Source of the DNA: Gynuella sunshinyii YC6258
GTDB lineage: Bacteria; Pseudomonadota; Gammaproteobacteria; Pseudomonadales; Natronospirillaceae
Assembly (NCBI RefSeq): GCF_000940805.1
Contig: NZ_CP007142.1
Coordinates: 5,370,593 to 5,434,592, forward strand
Reading direction: 5' to 3'
Length of the DNA stretch: 64,000 nt
Shown here: positions 14,848 to 42,300 of the stretch, piece by piece
How the letters are laid out: each line of letters starts with the position of its first letter
Numbering within the stretch: position 1 is the first letter of the stretch
Notes under the pieces: generated by a model
What the model saw: the letters and a program-made list of their open reading frames with translations, nothing else
The model's database searches: none
What the model was told of the DNA's origin: nothing
Translations under genes and position numbers: made by a program

Positions 14848-16323
14848 ATGCAACTGACGCATATCCCCAGTACTTATCAGCCCACCAACCCTGCAAAAAC
14901 CATTGTTCACATTGGCCTGGGCGCGTTCATGCGCGCCCATCTGGCGGTATATATTCAGCGTTATCTGAACGAATACGGCGGCTGGCAGATCTGCGCTGCC
15001 AACATCCGCTCCAACCGGACCATTGTTGAACAGCTTGAGCAACAGCACGGCCGCTACCATGTACTCGAATGCGCCAGCAGCGAACAGGCCGTTTTACGGG
15101 AAATCAACGCCATTCAAACCGTTCTCTATGCGGCAGGCGAAGACCACAGCTGGAAACTGGTGGACCGCATCGCTTCAGTGGACACCCACCTTATCACCCT
15201 GACCATTACCGAAAAAGGCTACGGTATTGATCCGGCCACGCTGGCATTTAAGAACACCGATCCCGGCATCGCCCACGACCTTCAAAATCCGGAACGGCCC
15301 ATATCAGCCGCCGGCATTCTGGTTCGTGGTTTGAGTGAGCGACGGCGTCTGGGGTTGCCTGGGCTGACGATTCTGAGCTGCGACAACATGCCTCATAACG
15401 GCCGCTGCGCCGAACAGATGGTCTGCGGACTGGCCGAGCGACTGGATCCATCACTGGCAGAGTGGATACGACAGTCGATCAGCTTCCCCTCCTGCATGGT
15501 CGACCGCATCGTGCCGGCCATGACGGCGGACTCCAGCGCACAACTGGCTGATGCCTGCGGCCAGCAGGATGCTGCCGGCGTGGTATGCGAGGCTTTCAGC
15601 CAATGGGTGATTGAAGATCAATTCTGTCAGGACCGGCCGGACCTCGATAAAGTGGGTGTCCTGTTAACTCAGGATGTGGCGCCGTTTGAGGCCATGAAGC
15701 TGCGGATGCTGAATGGCAGTCACTCGTTACTGGCCTATCTCGGTTATCTGAGTGGTTTCCAGTTGGTCTCTGAAGCCATTACCCATCCACCGTTGCGTAG
15801 TCTGATTCGTCATTACATGCTCGAAGAGGCACAGCCGACCCTTGGGGCCATCAAGGCCGAGGTGGATCTGCCGGGCTATGCCCGTGATCTGATCGCGCGC
15901 TTCGAAAATACCAGCCTGAAACACCGCACCTATCAGATCGCAATGGATGGCAGCCAGAAGATTCCCCAACGCTGGCTGCAAGGTGCCCAGCAGTTGTTTG
16001 ATCAGGGTCAGTTCCCGCATTGTGTCAGTCTGGGGCTAACCGCCTGGCTACTGTATACTCGCGGCCGCAATCTGCAGGGCCAGCCATTTGAACTCCAGGA
16101 TCCAATGGCAGAGACACTGCTGGCGCTGCATCAGCGCAACCTGTCGGTCGCCGCACTGGTCACCGAATTTCTGGCACTGCCGGTATTCGCATCACTGTCG
16201 GCGGCACTCAAACAGGCGCTGAGTCAGAATATGGAAAGACAACTGGAACTCTTCAACCAGCTTGGCCTGAAAGAGCTACTGCAACAGACCCTTACAACCA
16301 TGGAGCAATCAGCGAATGAGTAA
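14848..16323 (+). CDS. uxuB: Fructuronate reductase / mannitol dehydrogenase family
   Basis: 491 residues of the polyol-specific long-chain dehydrogenase family. Features are an N-terminal Rossmann segment ([18 protein letters not shown]), the [10 protein letters not shown] motif near residue 120 and the [13 protein letters not shown] helix with the catalytic region of the C-terminal domain. In this context it reduces D-fructuronate to D-mannonate with NADH. It starts three bases after manD and overlaps uxaC by eight bases, so the three enzymes are translated together. The codons for VDTH at 15178-15189 match the 12-base RAYT-associated repeat core found elsewhere in the window; this may be chance. 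Confidence 0.9.
15178..15189. repeat. Possible intragenic copy of the RAYT-associated repeat
   Basis: GTGGACACCCAC within uxuB, encoding VDTH, is identical to the 12-base core of the hairpin copy at 21480-21495. It has no extended flanking match and lies next to a conserved motif, so coincidence is possible. Confidence 0.35.
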
Positions 16324-18717: not shown

Positions 18718-20115
18718 ATGACCACTTCCAACATCGCAGTACCAACGGCCGAGACGCCGTCAATGGACACCCACTCGCCTTCATTGGACACCCACTTATC
18801 GCCGTCTTCACTGGACACCCTGTTCAGTGATCTTCAACCACCGCTAACCGACCGTCAGGCCGCCATAGAAAGCGCCCGTTGTCTTTACTGCTACGATGCT
18901 CCCTGCATCAAAGCCTGCCCGACGGGTATTAATATCCCGAGTTTTATCGCCAGCCTCCACGCCGGCAATGTGGAAGGCGCAGCCCGGACCATTCTGGAAA
19001 GCAATATCATGGGCGGTAGCTGCGCCCGCGTGTGTCCAACAGAAATCCTGTGCGAGCAATCCTGTGTGCGTAACAAAGAGGCCGAATGCGCTCCCGTGCT
19101 AATAGGCAGGTTACAACGCTACGCCACCGACCACGCCAGCTTTACTGGACACCCATTTAAACGCGCTGAAGCCAGCGGTAAGACAATCGCCGTCATCGGT
19201 GCCGGCCCTGCCGGACTTAGCTGCGCCCACAGACTGGCCATGCTGGGTCACGAGGTTGAAGTATTTGAAGCCGAAGACAAAGCCGGGGGCCTGAATGAAT
19301 ATGGCATCGCCCGATATAAGCTGACGGACAACTACGCTCAACAGGAGGTGGATTTTATCCTCGGCATCGGCGGTATTACGGTACATAGCGGCAAAGCACT
19401 GGGACGGGATATTCAACTGGATACGCTGGTCACCGAATTTGATGCGGTATTTCTGGCCATTGGCTTACAGGCAACACGGCAACTGCAACTCGACCAAGAA
19501 CACCATTCTGCGGTCATGGATGCGGTCGACTACATCAAAACCTTGCGTCAGGCATCTGATCTCAGCGAGCTGGTAGTACCTCAAAGTGCAGTTGTTATTG
19601 GTGCCGGCAATACTGCTATCGACATTGCCTGTCAGCTGAAACGACTCGGAGCAGAAGAGGTGACTCTGGTGTATCGCCGGGGTGAGCAGGACATGGGTGC
19701 TACACACCATGAACAACAAATCGCCAAACAACATCAAGTCCGCATTCGCACCTGGAGCCGGCCGGAAACGATCCACGTGGATGAAAACGGTCATTTGACC
19801 GGCATGACCTTCCGTCGCACCGAACTGCAACAGAATCACTTAGTGGACACCCACTTAAGTGAACAGATTGCCTGCGAGGCAATCTTCAAAGCCGTTGGGC
19901 AAACACTCTCTCTGCCTGAAGCAGATGATGTCGAATTACCGGTCATACAGAATGGCAAAATCCATGTTGATGAACACTTTAAAACCAGCATGGACAAAGT
20001 ATTCGCCGGAGGAGACTGCACCGGAATCGGGCAGGACCTGACCGTGGAAGCGGTTCAACAAGGTAAATTGGCCGCTCTGGCGATTCATCAATCCCTGTGC
20101 CAGAAAACAGCATAA
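18718..20115 (+). CDS. preT: Dihydropyrimidine dehydrogenase small subunit PreT, carrying repeat insertions
   Basis: 465 residues. PreT is the NAD(P)H- and Fe-S-dependent partner of PreA that feeds electrons for reducing uracil or thymine. Visible are N-terminal cluster motifs (CLYCYDAPCIKACPTG and CARVCPTEILCEQSC), the FAD-binding AVIGAGPAGLSCAHRLAM, the NAD-binding VIGAGNTAIDIACQL and the C-terminal FAGGDCTG. Residues about 15-35 (SMDTHSPSLDTH, SLDTL) are encoded by three copies of the RAYT-associated repeat. Another copy gives LVDTHLSE near 376, and a fifth gives TGHPF near 143. Usual PreT proteins start close to the FSDLQPPL segment, so the N-terminal extension looks repeat-derived. preA follows after 21 bp. 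Confidence 0.92.
   Translation: MTTSNIAVPTAETPSMDTHSPSLDTHLSPSSLDTLFSDLQPPLTDRQAAIESARCLYCYDAPCIKACPTGINIPSFIASLHAGNVEGAARTILESNIMGGSCARVCPTEILCEQSCVRNKEAECAPVLIGRLQRYATDHASFTGHPFKRAEASGKTIAVIGAGPAGLSCAHRLAMLGHEVEVFEAEDKAGGLNEYGIARYKLTDNYAQQEVDFILGIGGITVHSGKALGRDIQLDTLVTEFDAVFLAIGLQATRQLQLDQEHHSAVMDAVDYIKTLRQASDLSELVVPQSAVVIGAGNTAIDIACQLKRLGAEEVTLVYRRGEQDMGATHHEQQIAKQHQVRIRTWSRPETIHVDENGHLTGMTFRRTELQQNHLVDTHLSEQIACEAIFKAVGQTLSLPEADDVELPVIQNGKIHVDEHFKTSMDKVFAGGDCTGIGQDLTVEAVQQGKLAALAIHQSLCQKTA
18764..18822. repeat. Three RAYT-associated repeat copies in the preT 5' end
   Basis: TGGACACCCACT (18764-18775), TTGGACACCCACTTA (from 18784) and CTGGACACCCTG (18811-18822) lie at about 20-27 bp spacing inside the preT coding region. 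All are on the coding strand and in the frame giving (M/L)DT(H/L). Confidence 0.8.
19144..19158. repeat. RAYT-associated repeat copy in preT (linker)
   Basis: ACTGGACACCCATTT inside preT, coding strand, read as TGHPF, just before the FAD-binding domain. It is a weaker candidate than the other preT copies because HPF is plausible native sequence. Confidence 0.5.
19837..19861. repeat. Hairpin-forming repeat copy in preT 3' half
   Basis: The core GTGG-ACAC-CCAC (19843-19854) is flanked by CACTTA on the left and TTAAGTG on the right. The whole folds into a stem of about ten pairs with one bulged base and an ACAC loop. It adds LVDTHLSE to PreT between a surface strand and the conserved CEAIFKAVGQ segment. 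Confidence 0.75.
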
Positions 20116-21479: not shown

Positions 21480-21530
21480 CAGTGGACACCCACTGTAATT
21501 AGTTGGATGTAATTAGTTGGACACCCAACT
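21480..21530. repeat. Left-hand RAYT-associated hairpin repeats
   Basis: Two clean hairpins share the loop region GG-ACAC-CC: CAGTGG-ACAC-CCACTG (21480-21495) and AGTTGG-ACAC-CCAACT (21515-21530). The stem bases differ between them but stay paired. A half copy (AGTTGG-ATGT, 21501-21510) lies between. They are about 260 bp beyond the 3' end of the RAYT gene, in inverted orientation to the copies on its other side. Confidence 0.85.
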
Positions 21531-21792
21531 CAAGAGTTTAGAGACTCTTTCAAGGACATATAAAAGAGGTTTAGAAAACGGTATTTAGAAAACACTCAAT
21601 TCCGTCAATTGGATCAACGTTCACCATTTTTTTTATTGGACAACTAAAAAGCGCCCAAACAGAACAGCTAAGATGCTGATAAATTTAAAAATAGGGACTG
21701 AAAAGAGGAAATTGAGATCTATGAGTGAATTAAAAACACACCCAATTCTTTGGAGGGATCAAGTATTCTTTATTTAAGATTGGTTTTAATGA
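21531..21792. other. Non-coding spacer between left repeats and RAYT
   Basis: About 260 bp of AT-rich sequence. AAGAGT-TTAGAG-ACTCTT (21532-21549) is a short stem-loop, and TTTAGAAAAC occurs twice near 21570-21595. No gene is visible. On the RAYT side it may carry the end of the mobile unit. Confidence 0.4.
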
Positions 21793-22758
21793 TCAACCTG
21801 CCAACAAATTGGGCGGCATTCGATTCAGGTTGAAGCAATCTTTGATTCTTTCAAACGATGACTTTTGACCGGCAAAACATTTGAACTGTTTTTCAAAACG
21901 TTGGGTCAAACGATGCCATTGCGCCTCCGAGATATCCAGACGTGTAAGTATCGGTGGTTGTTGGTTATCAATGAACCCCGGTTTGTCTTCCCGCATGGCT
22001 CGTCCGGTCCAATCCACCAGTTCCAGATAATCTTTGAACGGAAAAGGTATGCCTTCCGGCATCTCTTGTTTGATATGACCGATAAATGGCATGAGCTCAC
22101 TCGGTTGTTGACGGTTGTTCTGGATGGATAGGATACGTTTTTGAATCGAAGTGTGATCGGAGGTTTCAGGAGTGGCTGCGATGTTGGCCCGGACGGGATT
22201 GAGGTCGACATAGGCCATGCAGGCCATGAGTGCTTTTTCGTCCAATAATGCCTGGGATTTAAACCGGCCTTCCCAAAAGCGACCGGTGCACTGATCTTCC
22301 TGATTGGCTCGGCGGGCAATTCCTTCGTTTAACACCGCCATGAAACGACTGATGGAGGTTAATGTTTCGCGCCATTGTTCGACCAATGTCATTAATATTT
22401 TCTCCTCAGCCGGAGAGAAACGGTCACCGTTAAGGTAACGATGACTCAAGGGAACGCCTTTGTAGAGGCGATGCCAGCGGGTAATAACCTCTTCCATCGA
22501 CCATTGTTCGCTTTGCCTGAGATTCACATGGAGCACCACATGCACGTGGTTGGTCATGACGGCATAGGCACAGATATCAATGGCGAAAATCTCACCCAAC
22601 CATAACAAGCGGTCTTCGACCCATTGACGGCGATGTTCGTAGCTGATTTGAGTGAGAGGATCGAAACCACAGAGGAAAGCTCGTCGGACACACCGGGAGA
22701 TACAATGATAGTACGGGGTGGCATCGAGTGATATTTGTGACTTCCTTGATCGGGCCAT
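21793..22758 (-). CDS. rayT: REP-associated tyrosine transposase (RAYT), Y1/HUH nuclease
   Basis: 321 residues. It is an IS200-like Y1 transposase of the RAYT type: HUH motif H71-V-H73 in VMTNHVHVVLHV, catalytic Tyr183 in the family signature AYVDLNPVRA, and GRFWEGRFKSQALLDEKAL before it. RAYTs are domesticated-looking, usually single-copy enzymes that bind and cut short hairpin repeats (REPs) in single-stranded DNA. This one is intact. It is bracketed by oppositely oriented copies of the GGACACCC/GGGTGTCC repeat, five of them within 70-180 bp of its start, so these are its likely substrate. The activity on this repeat is inferred. The long C-terminal extension (about 130 residues past Tyr183) has no recognised function. 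Confidence 0.92.
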   Translation of the reverse strand: MARSRKSQISLDATPYYHCISRCVRRAFLCGFDPLTQISYEHRRQWVEDRLLWLGEIFAIDICAYAVMTNHVHVVLHVNLRQSEQWSMEEVITRWHRLYKGVPLSHRYLNGDRFSPAEEKILMTLVEQWRETLTSISRFMAVLNEGIARRANQEDQCTGRFWEGRFKSQALLDEKALMACMAYVDLNPVRANIAATPETSDHTSIQKRILSIQNNRQQPSELMPFIGHIKQEMPEGIPFPFKDYLELVDWTGRAMREDKPGFIDNQQPPILTRLDISEAQWHRLTQRFEKQFKCFAGQKSSFERIKDCFNLNRMPPNLLAG

Positions 22759-22825
22759 AACTCCATCCTGATAAATATACAGTATCGAATAATGCCTGCT
22801 ATCGGAAAATTGATCAAGCCTTAAC

Positions 22826-22939
22826 GTGGGTGTCTCAGAAAACTTTTAACGTGGGTGTCTCAGAAAACTTAGCTTGGGTGTCCCCTAAACTCTGAACGTG
22901 GGTGTCCCCGGAACCGGAACCGTAAAGTGGGTGTCCCAC
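22826..22939. repeat. Right-hand RAYT-associated repeat array (five copies)
   Basis: GTGGGTGTCT at 22826 and 22851 (25 bp apart, with shared flanks TTAAC and CAGAAAACTT), TTGGGTGTCCCC at 22874, GTGGGTGTCCCCG at 22898 and GTGGG-TGT-CCCAC at 22927-22939, the last a perfect 5-bp hairpin. They lie just upstream of the RAYT start. Flanking bases are shared with copies inside NRPS and PKS genes (16 and 13 identical bases), showing common origin. The 133 bp from here to the stop of the outer-membrane protein gene hold nothing else recognisable. Confidence 0.85.
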
Positions 22940-32599: not shown

Positions 32600-35500
32600 T
32601 CAGCCGCCCGTCAGCGCACTGATTCCAGACTGGATTGCTTTTCCGAGTCCTTCGACAGTCGTTGCCTGATACTGTTTGCCAGAATAATGGATCTGGATAT
32701 TCAATCGCCCACCGACCACGAGAATCTCCAGCTCCAGCTCGTGGGTTCTGGGGTTTTCACTGGCGCGATCCTGTCCGGCTGAGCCTCTGACCTGCCAACC
32801 GGAGGGCAACGCCAGGTTGTCGTACATGCCGAGGAAGTTATACAGCACGGCGTTATCCTGATAACCATACAGGGCATGTTTCGGGTCGGCATGCGCCTGA
32901 TTGCAGGCTTCTACAAAATACCGACTGCTCTGCTGGTGCGCCTGCCAGTTCTGACTCACCTGCGTCAATGTTTCATGAATATCATTGCTGATGGAAGCGG
33001 CAAACGGATTATGGGTGGCGAACCAGCCGATGGTTCTGGAAAAGTCTTTGTCACGATGAATATCACGACCATTGGAAATCACATCCAGCGCCACCTGTTG
33101 CTCACCACTCCACTGATGCAAAGCCTGCATCACAGAGGTCAGCGTCACCAGATGCAGATTCACTCCGGCGGCTGAACTGACACAATCGAGGATGCCCCGG
33201 GTCTGATCTTCGCTGAACTGTATAGCGTAGCTGCACAGATCAGCTTCCAGATTACTGCCTTCCAGGTCTTTGGGAAGACGGAATTGTTCCGATTCTGCGA
33301 ATTGATTCCAGTCGGCTGCGTATTGCTGCCGGGCTTCACCGAATCCTTGTTTGACCGTATCAACATAATCGGAAAATGGCGCGGTTGCCGGTAACGGTTG
33401 CTGAGGCTGCTGATAGGCCGCCGCGAGATCCTCCACCAGAATACGCCAGCAATGCGCATCCACGGAAAAATGGTTGACCGACCAGATCAGACGAACATCC
33501 TGATCCGAGAAAATACCCAGCATCATGTCGCCAATGCCTTGTGCCCGGCAACTGCGGTGCGACTGCAATTCCGCGATCAGACGCTGATATTCCGATTCCG
33601 CCACCTCAGGTTCAATTGTGCTCAGGTCATGGACGATTATTGGCCGGGTAACGATATCCGCGACTGCGAGGCGCTCGGTATTGTCCTGATCGATACCGGC
33701 ATGCAGCATCGGATGAGCGGCAATCACCTTGTTCAAAGCCGTGTTCAGGCGTTCGATCTCGGGAACCGCCTGCATCCGCAATTCAATGGACTGATTCCAG
33801 TGATCCCGGTTTACCAGTGGCATGCGGTGAATAAATTTATATTGCATCGGTGACAGCGCGGAATGAGGTTGCTGCTGTGACAATGATGGCGATGGTTGCC
33901 CCTGACCATCTTTAACCCGCTGCAAAATCTCCCGAATGGTCCGGCCTTCCATAATAATGGCGGGCGTCGCCGAATAGCCCATGTTTTTCAGTGCGGAAAT
34001 ATATTGTAAGGCCAATAACGAATCACCGCCGATCAGAAAGAAATCATCCTCGACCCCAATGCGATCAATATTGAGCATGGCCTTCAGGGAATCAGCCAAC
34101 CGATGTTCTTCATCCGTCGACGGGGGCACAAATGTCTGGCTGAGTTCGGTGCGCGAAACCTGCCACTCCATTAATGCTTTGCGGTCCAGTTTGCCGGTTG
34201 TGCCAACGGGCGGATTGGCCAGAAACACAAACTGGCTCGGCACCATGTATTCCGGCAATTTACCTTTCAGCGCCTGCTGCAATTCGCCAGCAGAAAGCTC
34301 ACCGCTGGCCGAGGTGTAAAACGCCACCAGGCGGTTACCGCTCATCGGATCGGGTCGCGCAAGCACCGCCGCCTGATCGATCCCGTGAATACCGGAAAGC
34401 TGGGTTTCCACTTCGCCCAACTCGACTCTGAAACCGCGAACTTTTACCTGATAGTCGGCACGACCAACGATTTCCACCACGCCATCGGCATTCAACACAC
34501 CGAGGTCACCGGTCTTGTAGATCGTCTCACCCATGTCCGATTCCCACGGACACGGGATAAACGCATTGCGGGTTTTCTCTTCATCACCGTAATACCCCTG
34601 AGCCACGCCAAGACCGGCAATGTACAACATACCTTTTTGTCCAATTGCGCAGGGTTTCATCGCCTCATTGAGGACGTAAAAACGTTGATTGGCCAACGGA
34701 AATCCATAGGGAATGCTCTTCCAGTGCGGTGCCACCCGATCCACCGGATAATAGAAAATAGACCAGACCGTCCCTTCTGTGGCACCGCCGAGACTGGAGA
34801 TTTTGCAGTTGGGAAAATAACGATGAATATTGGCCGGCAGACTCAACGGAATGAATTCACCGCTGAGCATGGCCAGCCTCAGTGTTGGATGCGTGCGCTG
34901 ATCGTTGCGGTCAAGTAAGGGGATCAGCATCTGGCTCATGCCGGTAGGCACGGAATCCCAAATGGTAATACGGTGTTGATCGATGATATCGATCAGCCCG
35001 GCCGGATCTTTGATCTGCGCCTTGGTCGGTACAAACACTCTGGCACCGGCCAGAAACGAACCAAAGATATCCCACACGGAAAGATCAAAACTGTAGGACG
35101 AAAAACACATTACCCGGTCAGCGGCATTCACCCGGTATTGGTTGTTCACCCCAATCGCCGTGTTCACGATATTCAGATGACTGATCATGACGCCTTTGGG
35201 TTTGCCGGTACTGCCGGAGGTAAAAATGACATAACACAGATCATCCGGTTGATTCACATCGGCCGGACACTCAGTCGATTGCTGTCGCAGCTGCCGGGCA
35301 TCCAGCACCTGGATTCCCTGCTCTTCAGCGGCGTCATATTCATCCAGACACACAATGGTTTTAACGTGGGTGTCCCCTAAACGCCAGCCGGCCGTTGCGA
35401 GGGTTTGCCGGTCGGTGACGATGACCTCGGCCTGAGTCTGCTGCAGAATGCCTTCAATGCGATCCGCCGGATTATCTGGTTCGAGCGGCACATACGCACC

Positions 35501-39300: not shown

Positions 39301-42300
39301 CTCCCTTGCTGATTCCCTGCTCGACCAGCTCATGACTGAGCGCATCGACGCAAGCCTGCAACTCCGCATAGCTCAGCTGATACAGGTCATCGCTGATGGC
39401 CAGCTGTTCTGCAAACCGGGTGACGGCATCATTAAAACGTGCAACGACGCTGTATTGCCGGTCAATGGCGGCATCAGTCCGGTGATAGCTGGACAGAATG
39501 GCCTGATGTCCGGGCGTGATCCAGTTTAACGACCTGACCGGCATCGCCGGGTTCACCGCAATCTGTTCGATCAACAGGCGAAACACATCAATGTAATAAT
39601 GAATCTGGGTCGGCTGATACTTCGTGGCATCATATTCCCACACGCACTCCAGATCATGACCCATAAATTCCGAGGTGATATAGATACCGGTTCTGGGCCG
39701 GCTGCGATGAGCCTGTCGTGACATCACCTGAAGCTGCTCACCCGGATCAAACGCTGGAGTGTTTTGATGGACATAAACCACTTCCATCATCGACTCGATA
39801 TTCACCCCTGTCAGCTGACTCAGCCGTGCCAGAGGCAAGGCAGGCGAGGCAATCAGTTTATACGTCTGCGCCGCGACACTGGCGGCGAGATCCGTGACAG
39901 CGGCCTGCTCATCCACCTCAATCACATACGCCTGGGTCTGAGCAAAATACCCCACCCGCCGGGCATCACTGTCGTGATGCCGGTTAGCCACCAGAGTACC
40001 GAGCAGCACCCTGTCATGCCCCGACAATCGTGAAAACAACAAAGACACCGCCGTGGCCAGAAAATTAAAGACCGTCAAATCCCCATGGCCGCAGTAATCC
40101 TGCAAACGCTGCACCGACTGACCATCAAACTTCCACTTAACGACGGCACAGGTTTGAGTGGGTGTCCCATGAACATGAGTGGGTGTCCCATGAATCGCTG
40201 CTTCCTGAACCGGCTGGGTTTGGGTGGGTGTCCCTTGAACAGAAGTGGGTGTCCCATGAACAGCCGCTTCCTGAACCGGCTGGGTTTGGGTGGGTGTCTC
40301 TTGAACAGAAGTGGGTGTCCCATGAACATGAGTGGGTGTCCCATGAACAGAAGCGGGTGTCCCTTGAACATGAGTGGGTGTCCCCTGAACAGAAGTGGGT
40401 GTCCCTTGAACATGAGTGGGTGTCCCATGAACATGAGTGGGTGTCCCATGAACAGCTGCTTGAACAGACGTGGGTGTCCCTTGAACATGCCTCCCTTGAA
40501 CATGAGTGGGTGTCCCATGAACGGCCGCTTCCTGAACCGGCTGGGTTTGGGTGGGTGTCCCATGAGCAAGCATGGGCAGGTCGATGCTGTGGGTGTCTTT
40601 TAGCAGTTGTCGCCAGTATTCGGTTTCACCGTCTGCGGGCTCAGCCGCCTGGGTCTGCCACAGGCCTTGACTCTGTGCTTGTGCCAGCCGGCCGTGGTAG
40701 GCGTTGAAAATATCCTGCAACAGGATGCTGAAGCTCCAGCCATCGGTGACCAGGTGATGGGAGACGATCAGCAGGCTGTAGTTGTCGTTGCCAAGTTCGA
40801 ACAGTTCCACCCGGATCGGGCATTCGGTATAGAGATCGAAGGCACGTTCGGCCCGCTGTTGTAACAGTTCTGGCAGGTTGTCGGGATGTCGCGTCACCCG
40901 CACATCAATCTGGCTGTCAGGTTGCCAGATCAGGGTCGGCTGGCGCTGATCATCGACGATGGTATTGAGCATCGGATGCGCACGTACAGCTTGAACCACC
41001 GCTTCCCGAAACCGGTTCAGGTTGATATGGGCGTTGAAGTTCAGGCTGTAGCTTTCGTTGTAGGTGTTTTTGTGTTCATCGAGCAGGTAGCTGGTCCAGA
41101 TGGCGTACTGGTTTTCTGACAACGGCACTTCTGTCAGTCCCTGCTCAAATTCACCCGGCGCTTCGATAATCAGCGGATCAGGCAGCAGTGCGGCGATGCC
41201 CTGAAGATGTTGTGCAGCCACCAGTTGTGCCAGGGACATCCGGACATTCAGTCGGGCCTCGATCCGGTGACTCAGTTGCAACCAGCTGACGGAATCCATG
41301 CCCATATGTGACAAGGGTTCAAGGACTGCCGGTGCGTCTCCGGTCAGCGCCTGTATGTCGCAGATCTGCTGCCAGACCCATAATTCGCGCTCACCGGTGG
41401 TGGCATCCCGGTGGTGCTGAAATGACACTTCACAGTCGTCATACAGTCCATCAATGATGCCCTGACGCAACTGAAACCGTCGGATCTTGCCGCTGGTGGT
41501 TTTTGGCAGAGCGGACAATTCAAACACCCTTGCCACAGGATAGGACAGCCGGCTTTCGAGTTCGCTGCGCAGCCGTTCTATTTTCTGAACCGGCATATCA
41601 CTGTATTTGCGATAAAACAGTGCCACCTGTTCTTTTTCATCGGCGGAATGCCGGTAGCCGACCACGGCCAGCTGATTGGAAGGCCAGCCGGTTTTGTCAC
41701 ACAGGCTGTTTTCCAGGTCGTTGGAATAGTGATTTTTGCCGTTGATGAACAGCACGTCTTTGGAGCGACCGGAGATAAACAGTTCGCCATTGCAGATAAA
41801 GCCAATATCTCCAGTGCTGCACCATTCGGTCAGCGCTTTACCCCAGTATCCACGGCTGACATTAGCACCGGCAAAGCTGATATGACCGGTTTGCAGTTCA
41901 CCCAGTTGGTTGCCGTCGTCATCACTGATGCGTACCTGCATGCCGGCCATGATCGGCCCCAGAGCCACCATTTCCACCGCATCGTGTTCATGTTCCGGCA
42001 CCGGAATCACAGCGGTACCCACCGCTTGCCCGGAAGTTTTTTTGATCCTCAGAGTCGGTAATCCGCCCCGGCGTTCCAGATCGCTGTGTTGAAACAGGCT
42101 GGCCACCACACAGCATTCGGCAATGCCGTAACCGGGACTGACCACCCAGGGTTTGAGTCCGACCGCTGCGAAGTGATGGTTGAAGCGGCGCACCAGTCTT
42201 GGGTTGATCGGCTCCGCGCCGTTGTAGATCACCCGCAATGACGTCAGATCGAGATTTTCCTGCACAGGATCAGGACACGCACGCAACAAGGTATCAAAAC

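Follow-up and report, generated by a model that had tools for sequence, protein, structure and literature searches.

The window studied here, a stretch of 64,000 nucleotides from Gynuella sunshinyii YC6258, carries a gene for a putative RAYT-type transposase enclosed by copies of a short repeat that also occurs inside other genes of the window. This raises the question of whether the repeat is the DNA partner of the transposase, and whether the copies within genes derive from its activity. The features at the locus are as follows.

21793..22758, minus strand: gene for a RAYT-type HuH-Tyr transposase of 321 aa (open reading frame, family scores, alignment, structural model and fold match).
22821..22936, minus strand: upstream (left-end) array of five GGACACCC/GAGACACCC copies pointing at the RAYT gene, a tandem repeat of period 24-25 (sequence).
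21484..21492, plus strand: downstream inverted copy 1, GGACACCCA, which can form a 6-bp hairpin with an ACAC loop (sequence and folding).
21519..21527, plus strand: downstream inverted copy 2, GGACACCCA, which can form a 6-bp hairpin with an ACAC loop (sequence and folding).

Family scores for the 321-aa protein were weak (20 bits with Pfam and 41 bits with NCBIfam, both below the curated cut-offs), and a profile search of PDB sequences with the RAYT gave no match. The link to a solved structure came from a fold search: the AlphaFold model (pLDDT 84.9, pTM 0.87) had 4er8, the Escherichia coli TnpAREP-REP complex, as its best Foldseek match (E 7.5e-4), and VIA-align superposed 157 residues of the two at 3.2 Å with a Z of 11.9, the runner-up row standing at Z 7.0. 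Thg1 (Z about 7) and the other rows of the fold search were read as sharing a common fold only. Judged by the predicted fold, with TnpAREP 4er8 as best match, the gene encodes a RAYT. In an alignment of 44 sequences the HuH motif (H71-x-H73) is invariant, and Y183, located within YVDLNP, is nearly so, 110 residues from the HuH (73 to 183). The protein thus combines a Y---NP motif with a HuH motif in a Y1 fold, the combination that marks class 2 Y1 transposases (RAYT / TnpAREP). Subclass 2.3 of this family comprises proteins of ~325 aa with a HuH-Tyr spacing of ~110, present in several copies per genome in Alteromonadales and Chromatiales (Quentin et al. 2018, PMC6006769). The genome of G. sunshinyii has at least six full-length RAYT copies of two types (A, the type in the window, and B), plus C copies and fragments, and similarity matches to the RAYT protein were found in Alteromonas, Colwellia, Pseudoalteromonas and Ectothiorhodospiraceae. 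The window RAYT fits subclass 2.3 in length, HuH-Tyr spacing, copy number and host range, an assignment made by comparing measurable traits with the published subclass values and not by placement in a tree.

The RAYT gene is indeed bracketed by inverted repeat copies, two downstream on the plus strand and five upstream on the minus strand. All five of the upstream copies originally predicted were found, but only three are exact, the other two being GAGACACCC variants. The original prediction had also counted about 31 core copies in the window. The excess is real, with 32 exact occurrences of GGACACCC (2.2 expected) and 27 of GGACACCCA (0.7 expected), but does not amount to as many separate events: a single NRPS minisatellite with a 21-bp period (40151-40565) holds 14 of the 32 exact GGACACCC, so a plain count of copies in the window gives too high a figure for independent sites. 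Across the 6.48-Mb single-contig genome, GGACACCCA occurs 275 times and its reversed control 46 times; the genome copies were studied through sequence stretches around nearly all of those listed.

The repeat had been described as a hairpin family. The two hairpins downstream of the gene are present as described, with differing stems around the ACAC loop, and fold at -5.7 (21484) and -4.8 kcal/mol (21519), with z of -1.9 and -2.2. Together with a longer mean stem among intergenic copies taken alone (0.90 vs 0.54), they would suit a REP-type hairpin family resembling the known REP-RAYT pairs and differing from them in the foot. This reading is very improbable in the light of the remaining copies. 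Folding was no better than for shuffles in the upstream copies, in the unit of the coding arrays and in the B and C element ends; stem length across array copies showed no excess over shuffling (p=0.15); and excess pairing was likewise absent from ends at 44 (p=0.95) and 29 (p=0.09) further loci. The linear consensus is roughly TTCANKGGACACCCACTTNAAT in arrays and ATAACAGGACACCCANYTTAA at B ends, and the GT[AG]G foot is absent from it, in line with the original remark that the core lacks the usual GTAG-type REP head. Genome copies, the 44 and 29 foreign ends and folding rule out the hairpin as a general feature; the conserved signal is linear, and the name "hairpin repeat family" does not hold.

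Evidence for the pairing of repeat and transposase came from other genomes, in which 80 loci were gathered by protein similarity to the RAYT. In an unbiased k-mer test, GACACCCA was the commonest upstream 8-mer, found at 44 of the 80 loci against 0.77 expected, and the inverted TGGGTGTC was the commonest downstream 8-mer (28/80, 1.4 expected). Using a list of end variants drawn up after the upstream regions had been viewed, 70 of the 80 loci had a variant within 160 bp upstream of the RAYT (background 2.5%), and 68 an inverted variant within 450 bp downstream (background 10%). Both ends carried the same variant in 38 of 61 loci, compared with 19.8 when partners were permuted. The upstream copy closest to the gene is concentrated at 77-78 bp from the point where the protein match begins (range 73-145), and this fixed distance from signal to gene is seen in many genera.

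Co-occurrence was examined in 294 genomes of the order, with genomes called RAYT-positive on a match at E 1e-20. Raw 9-mer density separated RAYT-positive from RAYT-negative genomes weakly (p=0.03) and depended on composition, and tandem GACACCCA pairs were therefore chosen for the comparison. Of the 85 RAYT-positive genomes, 27 had at least two such pairs, compared with 3 of the 209 RAYT-negative ones (Fisher 1.9e-13, with kinship ignored). Equal repeat density in relatives lacking the gene had been named as an outcome that would speak against the pairing; the tandem pairs are thus far from equally distributed, and the pairing withstood this check as it did the k-mer test at the 80 foreign loci. 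In the 23 genomes for which RAYT coordinates were listed, 112 tandem pairs were listed and 63 of them lay away from listed RAYT matches, so these pairs are not merely the element's own ends. Two genomes in which no RAYT match reached E 1e-20 (G104 and G196) had 10 and 6 tandem pairs. In another genome (G201), the reversed control pattern occurred 65 times as tandem pairs, which is an unrelated tandem repeat with a mirrored core. Convergent pairs were found among the listed sites of two genomes (seven in G007 and nine in G038) and were not found among the listed sites of the home genome; order-wide, they occurred in 14 of 85 RAYT-positive and 6 of 209 RAYT-negative genomes.

One could suppose instead that GGACACCC serves the host, for instance in binding or uptake, and that the transposase merely inserts beside it. 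Copies do lie on both strands, within and between genes, and one genome without a RAYT match (G006) has 65 copies against 31 of the control. Yet in that genome none of 61 compared sites had a neighbor within 100 bp, the distance from signal to gene is constant in many genera, the two ends of a locus co-vary, and the B unit described below has the GGACACCC signal at either end. We consider a host site improbable.

The element copies of the home genome indicate what moves. B elements, whose protein is 75% identical to that of the window, lie in three unrelated surroundings and share 95-97% identity across about 1.27 kb, the match running from about ACAGGACACCC to GGGTGTCCTGTTATATT; by this sequence comparison, the B element is a 1.27-kb mobile unit with terminal inverted repeats. 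The resemblance among the three A copies begins at -69 or -38 and ends at about +968 relative to the ATG; this shared stretch stops short of the repeats, which are not part of a unit common to these siblings. C-type copies have the left repeat only. Between 2046500 and 2061500 of the genome, copies of the C-type left end (AAAATAGGACACCCAAAAACTTGAATT) lie between open reading frames, all in the same direction, ending at a C-type RAYT, in surroundings that include an Rhs/YD-repeat-like gene and small variable open reading frames; these left ends may mark cassette exchange. At 804000-822500, near-copies of an open reading frame that ends in LTWQKGYPSTSECQDHEGELIPEMHDPLLNDPDVLK recur, each followed by a pair of GAACACCC/GGACACCC signals 44 bp apart. 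A further family of ends, GTTAATGGGACACCCACTCYAATAATAGRTCGGCC, is also present in the genome (e.g., at 2341126, 2843453 and 6324808).

In E. coli, TnpAREP nicks and rejoins single-stranded DNA at REPs. The reading that we favor, to which we give a probability of roughly 70%, is that a subclass 2.3-type RAYT uses a linear terminal repeat as its signal and that its elements move, leaving behind solo ends, pairs and arrays. The recognition signal would be GGACACCCA, represented in relatives by GACACCCA and by variants such as GACAGCCA or GACATCCA, placed as a rule 77-78 bp ahead of the gene start, with a second, inverted copy some 270 bp beyond the gene. By analogy with TnpAREP at REPs, the transposase would most likely bind GACACCCA ends and nick and rejoin single-stranded DNA there. 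Whole elements move, as the sequence of the sibling B element with its terminal inverted repeats shows, and transfers of an end only would leave solo copies, convergent pairs such as those of G007 and G038, and tandem arrays. These arrays could grow by repeated end transfer or by replication slippage.

Copies within genes are represented in the window by the following features, in addition to the single copies in UxuB and PreT discussed below.

40151..40565, minus strand: in-frame array of HGTPTHV / QGTPTSV units, lying within the condensation domain of an NRPS and lengthening it by ~110 residues (gap relative to solved condensation domains).
18755..18820, plus strand: three copies in the DTH frame, in an N-terminal extension of a PreT-like gene (extension absent or different in homologues).
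35367..35375, minus strand: single copy in a loop of an NRPS adenylation domain that is ~11 residues longer than solved domains (sequence and domain comparison).

Eleven long open reading frames of the home genome hold at least two sense copies close together. Two PKS genes carry them in linkers, and NRPS genes other than that of the window in a PCP-C linker and in an A-domain loop; further sites include the NRPS of the window, the C-terminal tail of FliH, a position between the domains of CobB, and the N-termini of PreT and of one amidohydrolase gene; in a second amidohydrolase gene, the copies may precede the true start. Where an array reaches 10-14 copies, the protein gains about 110 aa or more, and such arrays are centered on megasynthase linkers. 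Array spacing was divisible by 3 in 63 of 65 coding cases compared with 14 of 43 elsewhere (p 8e-28). The reading frame varies from gene to gene (DTH, GTPT or GHP), so what the genes share is DNA rather than a peptide. The flank profiles of coding arrays correlated with those of intergenic arrays at r=0.73, a value reached in none of 5000 position permutations, which points to a relationship as DNA extending beyond the core. We propose that arrays in genes would survive only in loops, linkers and tails and in multiples of three bases, giving rise to in-frame low-complexity segments.

Coding arrays might also be ordinary minisatellites grown by replication slippage, with the RAYT having at most seeded one copy. 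The units within one array are close copies in the same orientation, higher-order periods of 42, 51 or 66 bp are compatible with slippage, and growth of this kind needs no RAYT step. Against this, the 11 separate long genes share core and flanks in different frames, tandem arrays track the presence of RAYT across the order, and the relative G007 has its own arrays in other proteins, in GTPT and GHP frames. Growth by slippage from at most one seeded copy thus seems unlikely, though worth keeping in mind. The boldest form of the favored reading, in which a RAYT type thought to be repeat-less acts on a linear end signal and itself writes in-frame arrays by repeated end transfer, is put forward as a tentative and rather doubtful extension.

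The claim that the genic copies are related elements stands for the arrays, which share DNA beyond the core, but not every genic copy is an inserted relative. The repeat had been described as having spread into nearby genes. In alignments, the single copies in UxuB (15180 and 15653) and PreT (19147 and 19845) were associated with no length change relative to homologues, and the residues encoded at 15180 and 19147 (DTH and GHPF) occur in homologues too. These single copies are length-neutral and consist partly of native codons, which rules them out as insertions. Over the genome, flank scores of single copies in long open reading frames were better than chance (10 of 56 at p<0.01). The UxuB copy at 15653 (region 15640-15670) lies in 19 nt that match the right end of the B element (AAAGTGGGTGTCCTGTTA and neighbors) with protein length unchanged, and this match hints that the RAYT may be able to overwrite short stretches without a change in length.

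The system resembles several known ones. It is like TnpA-Y1 / RAYT subclass 2.3 in length, spacing, Y---NP motif, multicopy state and hosts. For subclasses 2.1 and 2.3, neither automatic nor manual search had found REP-like sequences (Quentin et al. 2018, PMC6006769), whereas here a linear terminal repeat is present at most members tested. In TIRtrons (TIRYT), inverted terminal repeats enclose a RAYT-like gene, and some of these recur across the genome, paired or in clusters, according to the accessible part of their description (Di Nocera et al. 2013, PMC3733652). Inverted terminal repeats are likewise found in the B elements and at most of the 80 loci, whereas the A copy of the window has inverted copies but no unit in common with its siblings. 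TIRtrons differ in their shared GGGGWSAS motif and in their hosts, and GGACACCC is not mentioned in that part of their description (PMC3733652). As in the REP / REPtron and REPIN systems of E. coli and Pseudomonas, the transposase gene is flanked by inverted, genome-dispersed repeats, and convergent pairs occur in G007 and G038, but here a GT[AG]G foot and a conserved hairpin are lacking and each genome has several near-identical transposase copies. IS200/IS605 elements share the HuH-Tyr fold, and the B units likewise move whole, by the sequence evidence above; the repeats here are symmetric, linear and terminal rather than subterminal hairpins (as judged from the core repeats), and the protein is longer, with extra domains. 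Intragenic REPs and Rickettsia palindromic elements also place repeat DNA in frame inside unrelated proteins; these are palindromic, with clusters of at most 43-82 aa (Di Nocera et al. 2013, PMC3733652), whereas the arrays seen here have 10-14 copies, reach ~110 aa or more and lie in megasynthase linkers. Terminal inverted repeats at tyrosine transposases, and REP insertions that stay in frame and reach 82 aa, were thus already known (Di Nocera et al. 2013, PMC3733652). An earlier record of GGACACCC as a transposase repeat was not found in the literature searched, which covered few subscription journals; within that literature, what appears to be new is the partner signal of a subclass 2.3-type RAYT, its linearity, and how large the coding arrays are and where they lie.

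These results provide a likely DNA partner for a RAYT type common in marine gammaproteobacteria, and its activity is thereby directly testable. They also offer a candidate mobile-element origin for some of the low-complexity linkers in PKS and NRPS megasynthases. If true, repeated end transfer by RAYT would supply multidomain enzymes with new linkers.
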